Translations under genes and position numbers: made by a program | The notes under the pieces: generated by a model | Database searches by the model: none | Told to the model about the DNA's origin: nothing | What the model saw: the letters and a program-made list of their open reading frames with translations, nothing else | Part shown: positions 23,875 through 26,844 of the stretch, piece by piece | How positions within the stretch are numbered: the stretch's first letter is position 1 | How the letters are laid out: each line of letters opens with the position of its first letter | NCBI RefSeq assembly: GCF_008728835.1 | Contig: NZ_CP042582.1 | Location: forward strand, 2,507,001-2,571,000 | Length of the DNA stretch: 64,000 bases | Direction of reading: 5' to 3' | Origin: Hypericibacter adhaerens | GTDB lineage: Bacteria; Pseudomonadota; Alphaproteobacteria; Dongiales; Dongiaceae

Positions 23875-24774
23875 TCACGCGGATCGGTGCTGCCGGCTCC
23901 CCAGGACCTGCCACAGCACCGCGAACAGAACCACCGCCCCGCCCAGCAGCGTGGCGCCGCGCGGCACCTCGGCGAAGAAGATCCAGACCCAGAGCGGCGC
24001 GACCGGCGTCTCGAGGATGCTCAGGAGCGCCGCCTCCACCGCCGGAATGTGTTTGGCGCCCATCACGTAGAGCGCCAGGCCGAGGCCCATGTTGAGGATG
24101 CCGAACAGCGCCAGATTGACGAAATCGAGCGCGGTGATTCCGCTCGCCGGCCCTGCCATCGGAAAGCAGATCGCGGAGCCCGCGAAACAGGCCAGGCAGG
24201 CCGCCTGGATCATCGGCACGCCCGGATAGCGCCGGGTGATGCTCGTGGTGAGCGCCATGGTCGTCGTCATGACGAACGCGAGGAAGCAGCCCAGGAGGCT
24301 GCTGCCGCCATGGCCCAAGGCGCCGCCGACGGTGATGACCACGCCACCCAGGGCCAGCAGCCCTGCCAGCATGGTGCGGCGCGTGGGCCGCTCCTTGAAC
24401 CAGAGCCAGGCGATCGGCGCCGTCAGGAACGGCAGGATCGCATAGATGACCGTGACGTCGGCCACCGCGGTCAGCCGCAGCGAACCGATGAAGAGCAGCA
24501 TGCCGCCGGTGTTCAGCAGCATGACGATCAGGCCCGGCCAGCCCATCGGCCGCCACAGGCGACGCCCGGGCGCTCTCGCATCCCAGGCCATGAACAGCAG
24601 GATGCTCAAGCCGCCGAAGAGACCGCGCCAGGCCAGCATGGTCCAGAGATCGAGCGGGATGAGCCGGGTGAAGAAGCCGCCGCTGCTCCAGAAGATGGCC
24701 GAGGCCGTGACCATGGCCAGGCCGAGCCGATGGCGCGACCTCGCCTCGCCGGCTGTCAGGGCGGCATCGGGCAT
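23875..24774 (-). CDS. EamA/DMT-family transporter
   Basis: This 299-residue protein has ten predicted helices in two EamA repeats. The first begins LAMVTASAIFWSSGGFFTRL and carries LDLWTMLAWRGLFGGLSILL; the second repeat contains EAALLSILETPVAPLWVWIF, the classic DMT C-terminal helix pair. It lies 87 bases downstream of the BenE-family gene on the same strand and could share its GntR-controlled transcript. The substrate is unknown; EamA proteins commonly export amino acids or metabolites. Confidence 0.88.
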   Translation of the reverse strand: MPDAALTAGEARSRHRLGLAMVTASAIFWSSGGFFTRLIPLDLWTMLAWRGLFGGLSILLFMAWDARAPGRRLWRPMGWPGLIVMLLNTGGMLLFIGSLRLTAVADVTVIYAILPFLTAPIAWLWFKERPTRRTMLAGLLALGGVVITVGGALGHGGSSLLGCFLAFVMTTTMALTTSITRRYPGVPMIQAACLACFAGSAICFPMAGPASGITALDFVNLALFGILNMGLGLALYVMGAKHIPAVEAALLSILETPVAPLWVWIFFAEVPRGATLLGGAVVLFAVLWQVLGSRQHRSA

Positions 24775-24861: not shown

Positions 24862-26049
24862 CTACGGCTTCAGGCGGCGCAGCGCCAGCATGATTCCGCC
24901 CGCCAGCAACCCCCAGAAGGCGGAGCCGATACCGGCGAAGGACATGCCGGATGCGGTGGCGATCAAGGTCACCAGCGCCGCGTCGCGCTCGCCCGGGCTC
25001 GTGAGCGCGTTGCCCAGGGCCGAGCCGAAGGCGCCCAGCAGGGCCAAGCCCGCCACCGCCTCGATCAGCAAGGGCGGCGAGGCGCTGATCCAGGCCGTGG
25101 CGGCGACCGCGATCATGCCGAAAAGGATGTAGCCGACGCCGGTCGCGACCGCGGCGATATAGCGCCGGCCCGGATCGGGATGCGCATCGGGTCCGGCGCA
25201 GAGCGCCGCGGTGATCGCCGCGAGATTGATCGCATGGCCGCCGAACGGCGCCGCCAGGATGGTGCCGACGCCGGTCGTGACGATGAGCGGCCGCGAGGGC
25301 GGCTGGAACCCGTTGGCCTGCAGCACGGCGAAGCCCGGGATGTTCTGCGAGGCCATGGTCACGAGGAAGAGCGGCAGCGCGATGCTCACCATGGCGCTCC
25401 AGGAAAAGACCGGCGGCACGAGAGTGAGTTGGGGCCAGAGCTGGCCCACGGGCGGCGAGGGCCCTGCCCCCTGCCAGAACATCAGCGCCACCGCCAGCAG
25501 CACGGCCGCCGGCACCGCATAGAGCCGCCAGAAGCGCGCCACCACCGCCCAGAGCAGCACCACCGGCAGCGCCAGCGCGGGGATCTCGGCGATGGCGAGG
25601 AACGGCGCCACGCAGAGATGGAACAGCACGCCCGCCAGCATCGCGTTCGCGATCGAGGACGGGATCGAGGCCACGAGGCGCCCCAGCGGCTTCCAGAGTC
25701 CGGCCAGGACGATGAGCGCGCCCACGACCAGGAAGGCGCCGACGGCGGCGGCGAAGCCACCCTCGGGCGCGCCCGTCGAGGCCAGCAGTGCCGCGCCCGG
25801 CGTCGACCAGGCGACGCTGATCGGCATGCGGTAGCGGAGGCTCAGGAGGATGCCGAGCAGGCCCATGCCGACGCTCAGGACCAGCAATCCCGAGGCCGAC
25901 TGGGCCGGATCGGCGCCGACGCCGACCAGGCCCTGCACCACCACCGCGAAGGAGCTGCCGAACCCGACGAAGGAGGCCAGCAGGCCCGTGGTGATCGCCT
26001 GGCCCGGCGCCGCGGCCGCGGACAGCTCGGACACACGGTGTTGATCCAT
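24862..26049 (-). CDS. benE: BenE-family (benzoate/H+ symporter-like) transporter
   Basis: This 395-residue membrane protein has about twelve helices. Family blocks are GLLASFVGFGSSFAVVVQGL, YRMPISVAWSTPGAALLAST, FLVTMASQNIPGFAVLQANG and PFGGHAINLAAITAALCAGP. BenE relatives are classed as benzoate/proton symporters, but most are uncharacterised and no benzoate genes are in the window, so the substrate is open. ATG 26049 is preceded by AAAGGA at suitable spacing; an upstream in-frame start would add 21 charged residues. Its promoter interlocks with that of the divergent gntR gene. Confidence 0.85.
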   Translation of the reverse strand: MDQHRVSELSAAAAPGQAITTGLLASFVGFGSSFAVVVQGLVGVGADPAQSASGLLVLSVGMGLLGILLSLRYRMPISVAWSTPGAALLASTGAPEGGFAAAVGAFLVVGALIVLAGLWKPLGRLVASIPSSIANAMLAGVLFHLCVAPFLAIAEIPALALPVVLLWAVVARFWRLYAVPAAVLLAVALMFWQGAGPSPPVGQLWPQLTLVPPVFSWSAMVSIALPLFLVTMASQNIPGFAVLQANGFQPPSRPLIVTTGVGTILAAPFGGHAINLAAITAALCAGPDAHPDPGRRYIAAVATGVGYILFGMIAVAATAWISASPPLLIEAVAGLALLGAFGSALGNALTSPGERDAALVTLIATASGMSFAGIGSAFWGLLAGGIMLALRRLKP

Positions 26050-26105
26050 GGGCGATCCTTTTGCGAGATCCCTTCGAGAGCGGTCGGCCGGTTTCAGCCC
26101 CCGGC

Positions 26106-26134
26106 TTGGCACACCCCGCCCCGGCCTCTATAGT
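26106..26134 (+). promoter_or_regulatory. Candidate sigma70 promoter for the gntR gene
   Basis: TTGGCA (26106-26111), 17 bases, TATAGT (26129-26134) on the plus strand. The predicted start near 26141 falls inside the palindrome at 26138-26149, which fits autorepression. Confidence 0.55.
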
Positions 26135-26155
26135 TGAATTGGATCCAATCGACAA
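26127..26155 (-). promoter_or_regulatory. Candidate sigma70 promoter for benE
   Basis: On the minus strand TTGTCG (26155-26150), 17 bases, TATAGA (26132-26127). The palindrome ATTGGATCCAAT fills most of its spacer, and its -10 overlaps the -10 of the opposite promoter. Confidence 0.5.
26138..26149. promoter_or_regulatory. Putative GntR operator ATTGGATCCAAT
   Basis: A perfect 12-bp palindrome between divergent benE and gntR, within the benE-direction promoter spacer and at the predicted gntR transcript start. FadR/VanR-type GntR proteins commonly bind short dyads of this kind beside their own gene. Binding is inferred. Confidence 0.55.
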
Positions 26156-26163
26156 TCCACCCC

Positions 26164-26844
26164 ATGACCGCGACCCTCGCCCAGCTCGTCGATCAGGCCC
26201 GGCCCCGCTTCCGCACCGCGACCGAGTTCGTCGAGGCGACCCTGCGCCAGGCGATCCTGAACGGCACGCTGGCGGGCGGCACGCCCCTGCGGCAGGAGGA
26301 GCTGGCCGCGACCTTCGGGGTGAGCCGGATGCCGATCCGCGAGGCGCTGCGTCAGCTCGAGGCGCAGGCGCTGGTCGATTTCTATCCGCATCGCGGCGCC
26401 ATCGTGGCGGAGATCTCGGCCGAGGACGCCGCCGACAACTACACGATCCGCCTCGCCCTCGAACCCGTGGCCCTGCGGCTCTCGATCCCCCACCTGTCGG
26501 GCGCCGATCTGGACCGGGCGGCGGAGCTCCTGGCCGAGCTCGATGGCGAGCCGGACCAGAACCGCCTGGGCGAACTCAACCGGCGCTTCCACATGACGCT
26601 CTATGCCCGGGCCGGCCGCCCTCGCCTGCTCGCCCTCGTCGAGCAGCATCTGGCGCAGGCGGACCGCTATCTGCGCTTCCATCTCGCCGCCATGGGCCGC
26701 CATCACATCTCGCAGGGCGAGCATCGGGCGATGCTCGAGGCTGCGAAGGCGCGCAAGCCCGCGCTCGCCTGCCGCATCCTCGTCGCGCATATCGGCACCG
26801 CGGCGCAGACGCTCGAGCGCTTCCTCGAGGGCCGCGATCGCTGA
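26164..26844 (+). CDS. GntR-family transcriptional regulator (FadR/VanR type)
   Basis: This 226-residue protein has an N-terminal winged HTH with GTPLRQEELAATFGVSRMPI and REALRQLEAQALVDFYPHRG, the GntR signature. A helical FCD-type ligand-binding domain follows, with RLALEPVALRLSIP and conserved His positions RRFHMTLYA and RHHISQGEHRAML that may bind metal plus a carboxylate ligand. ATG 26164 is preferred over an in-frame TTG at 26134, which lies within the promoter. It likely controls itself and the divergent benE-EamA pair. Confidence 0.9.
   Translation: MTATLAQLVDQARPRFRTATEFVEATLRQAILNGTLAGGTPLRQEELAATFGVSRMPIREALRQLEAQALVDFYPHRGAIVAEISAEDAADNYTIRLALEPVALRLSIPHLSGADLDRAAELLAELDGEPDQNRLGELNRRFHMTLYARAGRPRLLALVEQHLAQADRYLRFHLAAMGRHHISQGEHRAMLEAAKARKPALACRILVAHIGTAAQTLERFLEGRDR

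Follow-up and report, generated by a model that had tools for sequence, protein, structure and literature searches.

VanR of Caulobacter and Acinetobacter is a GntR-type repressor of vanAB (PMC6888825), and in Caulobacter the 12-mer ATTGGATCCAAT is present in the common 5' part of two vanillate-promoter-driven constructs, as these are given in PMC6538847. VanR2 of Pseudomonas sp. NGC7, which its description likens to the GntR-type FadR and which we infer to be of GntR type itself, also shifts probes that carry just one GGGATCCC repeat; the repeat that is crucial is located directly downstream of a -10 (PMC12314914). For the FadR subfamily, 96 divergons holding the regulator gene have been described with a single site, located roughly mid-intergenic (Suvorova et al., 2015; PMC4494728), a study whose main text makes no mention of VanR. 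BenE-family proteins have been placed in MocR-type PdxR regulons, one of them as a putative pyridoxine transporter (PMC5320631), and also under the LysR-type CatM/BenM (PMC5320631, PMC6449761). Literature searches on the operator word, on its core together with GntR and on BenE together with GntR returned no title or abstract opening that describes the divergon analysed here, which is weak evidence of absence.

The window (the whole stretch of Hypericibacter adhaerens DNA that was analysed, 64 kb in length) carries ATTGGATCCAAT in the intergenic region between benE and a divergent gene for an FCD-type GntR regulator, within two overlapping sigma-70-like promoters. As in the single-site FadR/FCD divergons of PMC4494728, the regulator is divergent from its target with one palindrome in the shared intergenic region, whereas the common operator described there, TKGT/ACMA with GT and AC boxes 2-3 nt apart, differs from the TTGG-AT-CCAA of the window. 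VanR shares the 12-bp word with the window site but belongs to a separate clade, with vanAB as neighbours where the window has benE. VanR2 is likewise a repressor with GGATCC-centred inverted repeats, although with three operators and syringate catabolism genes (PMC12314914). The PdxR and CatM/BenM regulons resemble this locus in that the same transporter family stands under a local regulator, which there is of MocR or LysR type. The unit is best read, from its sequence and that of its relatives, as a single-site self-regulating divergon of an ordinary, known kind, newly supported.

Gene arrangement and predicted overlapping promoters

The genes and sequence elements of the locus, with the evidence for each in brackets, are as follows:

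23875..24774, minus strand: EamA-family exporter gene following benE and probably transcribed with it as second gene (profile; pair seen in the genus only)
24862..26049, minus strand: benE, BenE-family membrane transporter of 395 aa, the divergent target (profile, orthologue loci)
26106..26111, plus strand: -35 hexamer TTGGCA of the regulator promoter (sequence, promoter scan; identical in the congener G014 amid a diverged stretch)
26126..26158, no strand: 33-bp block identical in G014, spanning the whole predicted benE promoter, the regulator -10 and the operator (comparison of the window with G014)
26127..26132, minus strand: -10 hexamer TATAGA of the predicted benE promoter, 17-bp spacer, weak, lacking T at position 6 (sequence)
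26129..26134, plus strand: -10 hexamer TATAGT of the regulator promoter, 17-bp spacer (sequence, scan, geometry in relatives)
26138..26149, no strand: putative operator, perfect 12-bp palindrome ATTGGATCCAAT (sequence, orthologue conservation, genome-wide counts)
26150..26155, minus strand: -35 hexamer TTGTCG of the predicted benE promoter (sequence; geometry enriched in relatives)
26164..26844, plus strand: GntR-family regulator with FCD domain, 226 aa (P0001), likely a repressor (start ATG at 26164; domain profiles)

The regulator is a member of the FCD (FadR-subfamily) GntR proteins, with scores of 64.3 bits for PF00392 (cut-off 27) and 80.8 bits for PF07729 (cut-off 24.3), and the benE product matches the BenE family profile PF03594 with 358.7 bits. 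Among 37 orthologues (own included), the pocket residues D91, H143 and H187 of the FCD domain are present in all 37 and H209 in 36; these positions probably correspond to the Asp and the three His that bind the metal in FCD proteins, a family whose pocket holds a metal and a carboxylate effector.

Re-reading of the sequence confirmed the coordinates that the sequence-only reading had assigned to both promoters and to the palindrome. TATA at 26129-26132 is common to both -10 hexamers, and polymerase could hardly occupy both promoters simultaneously. With respect to the regulator promoter, the palindrome overlaps or abuts the -10; in the predicted benE promoter it occupies the spacer separating the two hexamers. 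The regulator transcript would be expected to start near 26141, within the palindrome. The default scan calls the plus-strand promoter only (10/12; shuffle mean 0.0), and the benE promoter, with 8/12, is nonetheless the best minus-strand candidate within 26050-26200. Besides the 33-bp block, GCTTGGCA (26104-26111) is also identical in G014, while 4 of the 14 bases between the two are kept and the remaining intergenic region has diverged. These identical islands are the best local evidence for the reality of both promoters.

The palindrome had been proposed to lie in the spacer of the benE promoter and at the predicted start of the regulator transcript, and both geometries are enriched in relatives when the palindrome is held fixed and the 60-bp flanks are shuffled, the benE one less strongly. 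A plus-strand promoter whose -10 abuts or overlaps the palindrome reached a mean of 8.49/12 compared with 5.42 in shuffled flanks, with scores of at least 8 in 29 of 37 loci (own included), whereas a minus-strand promoter with the palindrome in its spacer reached 6.84 compared with 4.69 and scored at least 8 in 12 of 37 loci (9 of 37 when the last T was required). In a thinned set of one locus per genus or unnamed lineage (n = 15), the regulator promoter gave 8.13 versus 5.39, with 11 of 15 loci at 8 or above, and the benE promoter 7.00 versus 4.72, none of 500 shuffles being as high in either case. As for the control geometries, a -10 adjacent to the palindrome on the minus strand was not enriched (234 of 500 shuffles as high), and the palindrome in a plus-strand spacer was somewhat enriched (1 and 3 of 500 shuffles as high); a small share of the geometry signal is therefore non-specific. 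Overall, strength and a conserved geometry characterise the regulator promoter, and the benE promoter falls behind it in both respects.

Conservation of the palindrome across loci and genomes

At up to two mismatches, the only match to the palindrome in the window is the copy at 26138-26149, against a chance expectation of about 1. The window contains 41 perfect 12-bp palindromes, and 596 of 20,000 mononucleotide shuffles (about 3%) of the 114-bp intergenic region contain one, as would suit a chance feature of an AT-rich promoter region; taken alone, the palindrome and its promoters are no more than suggestive. They lie beyond chance because the word is kept in 36 of 36 other orthologue loci as opposed to 1 of 42 loci with distant FCD regulators. 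With the word conserved at all 36 loci and in single copy per genome, a chance origin is already refuted and retains a practically negligible probability.

The loci were gathered through protein similarity alone and comprise 64 named loci and 16 places (own included) in 17 own-family genomes. Regulators with at least 60% identity define the orthologue set of 36 loci (L003-L035, L037, L068 and L069), from which the own copies L001 and L067 were left out; L066, where no regulator matched, is counted neither among these nor among the 42 distant-FCD loci. Genera among the 36 loci are Skermanella, Azospirillum, Chelatococcus, Kaistia, Novispirillum, Roseomonas, Paracoccus, Mesorhizobium and Pleomorphomonas. 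The core TTGGATCCAA is located upstream of the regulator in all 36, in a single copy per stretch taken; the full 12 letters are present in 34 loci, and 11 of the 12 in L031 and L035. Loss of the palindrome between divergent orthologues had been named as the outcome that would speak against an operator, and no such loss is seen. In the alignment of 37 loci (own included), the site reads TTGGATCCAA in every row, and outside the palindrome few letters per side are kept in the consensus. With divergent benE in 35 of the 36 loci (the exception being L009) and one site each, the arrangement of a regulator divergent from its target with one conserved palindrome between them is general in this set. 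Among the 42 distant-FCD loci (29 named, 13 own-family), the one with the word is L082, where the site lies 158 bp upstream of the regulator, a 35% relative; benE is absent from the stretch examined there.

The exact word occurs once in 33 of 35 whole genomes searched, the genome of L035 not being among them; it occurs twice in G420 and not at all in G425, whose local site differs by one letter. A control pattern, the word read backwards, gave no copy in any of the 35 genomes. As every one of these loci carries one copy next to the regulator gene, a genome's only copy is that of the locus, and because the word occurs once per genome, the regulator looks like a local switch. The second exact copy in G420 lies within the ORF of a LytTR response regulator and was discounted as a promoter site, even though no copy arose in shuffles of that stretch.

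The own genome contains the exact word once, in addition to one site with one mismatch at 3993473. The latter, ATTGAATCCAAT (G000:C1:3993473-3993484; L002:1501-1512), lies between an EutQ/cupin-like gene and an amidase gene, near -10-like words, and among the fetched loci is found elsewhere only in the overlapping L115; it is a possible weak second site. As a separate observation, the regulator-benE pair is scattered over several alphaproteobacterial families, yet among the 17 own-family genomes, with the own one counted, no more than 3 encode a regulator of at least 70% identity; horizontal transfer and repeated loss are both possible.

Relatives of the regulator and their sites

The VanR-like loci came from the plasmid collection, and five of them were fetched (L136, L137, L138, L139 and L143). 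Their regulators likewise carry GntR and FCD domains. L136 and L138, unlike L137, L139 and L143, have TTGGATCCAA immediately upstream of vanA (VanA_C profile). The window regulator is 34% identical over 148 residues to Caulobacter VanR, with which it also has VSRMP in common in the recognition helix. In the tree, a branch supported at 98/92 sets the VanR-like rows apart from the benE clade, the loci with the TTGTATACAA palindrome described below falling on the benE side; the VanR-like_TTGGATCCAA group of this tree includes L137, with no site in its fetched stretch, and Caulobacter VanR itself is not one of the rows. An orthologue of VanR would be placed in the same clade, next to vanA and vanB; the window regulator is not, and its orthologues have benE as neighbour in 35 of 36 loci. 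The window site nevertheless reads ATTGGATCCAAT, the word that in the Caulobacter vanillate-promoter constructs we take to be the VanR operator. Judged from these sequences, the same operator word is combined with a different regulator, of the benE clade and not VanR. Two further searches across 385 genomes of the class, one with a VanR sequence at E 1e-60 and one for paired operators, returned nothing and, being run without a positive control, are uninformative.

Own-family FCD regulators at 37-41% identity have the perfect palindrome TTGTATACAA some 13-92 bp upstream in 7 of 13 loci (L070-L082); these sites are probably operators of another FCD clade. In L036, from a Chloroflexota MAG, the 46% identical regulator is preceded by ATTGGATACAAT, a form midway between TTGGATCCAA and TTGTATACAA. 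The recognition helices suggested a Met/Ile code, with SRMP in all 37 orthologues with TTGGATCCAA and SRIP in the seven TTGTATACAA loci, but it fails as a rule: in L138 the helix reads SRQP and TTGGATCCAA is nonetheless found upstream of vanA, and L082 (SRIP) has the site, while L140, L142 and the VanR-like L137, all with SRMP, are without such a site in the fetched stretch. The comparison of helices within the own genome is incomplete, as the motif used recognised a helix in 4 of the 20 paralogue regions that were fetched. A GGAT..GGAT element found downstream of the palindrome in some loci, and absent from the window, was likewise rejected as a second operator, a ribosome-binding site with start codon fitting better.

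Genes adjoining benE

The sequence-only reading had extended co-repression to the EamA exporter gene. Support for this is confined to the genus: neither a promoter nor a terminator was called in the interval separating benE from eamA, and the congener G014 retains the gene pair, its EamA protein being 79% identical. Other lineages have other genes after benE. Beyond the genus, no other match to the EamA protein was found among the loci compared, the majority of them ending about 1.6 kb past benE. In G005, of the same family, benE is followed by a response-regulator gene with GGDEF and EAL domains. In L009 (Pleomorphomonas), an AlaX-like tRNA-editing gene (PF07973; L009:2172-2897, minus strand) replaces benE as the divergent gene, and in L027 (Paracoccus) a 53% identical AlaX-like gene (L027:977-1693, minus strand), its frame interrupted as assembled, comes directly after benE. 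In four loci, three of Kaistia and one of Mesorhizobium (L015, L017, L025 and L030), benE is immediately followed by a MobA-like nucleotidyltransferase gene, and 0.6-0.7 kb past benE there is a gene for a family-3 extracellular solute-binding protein. With four loci each, these are the most frequent downstream families, further lineages carrying still others, and no family is shared by all as part of a common operon downstream of benE (132 ORFs, up to four per locus, in 33 loci, the count leaving out L001, L068, L069 and L009).

In the own genome, the benA model gave 17 matches, none above the model cut-off, and the boxB model gave no match, an absence that says little as this model passed its cut-off in no control genome. 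Benzoate is unproven as the cargo of this BenE branch and should not be assumed, because other lineages have other genes after benE and BenE proteins also occur in MocR-type regulons. Since an AlaX-like gene replaces benE in L009 and an EamA exporter follows benE in this genus, the branch might instead handle a compound resembling an amino acid, one with which tRNA can be mischarged, the regulon being a sense-and-clear module. We hold this for quite improbable, the odds being lowered because it is the MobA-like gene, and not the solute-binding protein, that directly follows benE in Kaistia and Mesorhizobium, and because the alaX frame in L027 is interrupted.

Discussion

Sequence, domains, conservation, once-per-genome distribution and promoter geometry in relatives are direct observations at these loci. 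With a probability of about 0.8, the FCD-type GntR regulator encoded next to ATTGGATCCAAT has this palindrome as its only operator, from which one dimer would repress both the regulator gene and benE. Bound to ATTGGATCCAAT, the dimer would lie over the -10 and start region of the promoter from which the regulator itself is expressed and, at the same time, over the -35/-10 spacer of the divergent benE promoter. The predicted outcome is negative autoregulation together with repression of benE, and in this genus eamA would be repressed via read-through, provided that it is co-transcribed. Release of the dimer would follow from binding of a small-molecule effector, which is probably a carboxylate held at the FCD metal site.

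A site controlling one side only, either the regulator or benE, with the other gene under an uncontrolled or different promoter, would agree with the far better conservation of the regulator promoter and with the absence of a benE promoter among the default scan calls. We nonetheless consider such control unlikely, because the block identical in G014 spans the entire predicted benE promoter while the surrounding intergenic region has diverged, no better benE promoter is found within 26050-26200, and benE is still divergent in 35 of 36 loci. Some GntR proteins activate, and the regulator might activate benE from the palindrome; however, repressors are the proteins that bind within a 17-bp spacer or over a start point, and the alignment of 37 loci shows no separate conserved upstream site, which leaves activation hardly credible.

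The palindrome might also be read not by the neighbouring protein but by another GntR protein of the cell, for instance a VanR-type vanillate repressor, in keeping with the identical word in the Caulobacter constructs driven by the vanillate promoter (PMC6538847) and with the two VanR-like loci, of five fetched, in which TTGGATCCAA immediately precedes vanA. Such a reader is very improbable, given that the site accompanies the regulator gene in 36 of 36 loci and is found nowhere else in 33 of 35 genomes, that TTGGATCCAA is present in none of the 20 own-genome FCD regions fetched (of 22), and that the VanR-like proteins form a separate clade.

Because it is kept near letter-for-letter in dozens of relatives, the palindrome is very probably the switch by which the regulator turns down both genes. 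As two separate FCD clades share the core while benE-side relatives have TTGTATACAA, operator sequence does not simply follow clade, and where VanR and ATTGGATCCAAT are used as a switch in these bacteria, a check for cross-talk is advisable. An alphaproteobacterial regulator found in several families gains a firm candidate operator and a main target, and its effector, hence the real cargo of this BenE branch, becomes testable with one reporter.
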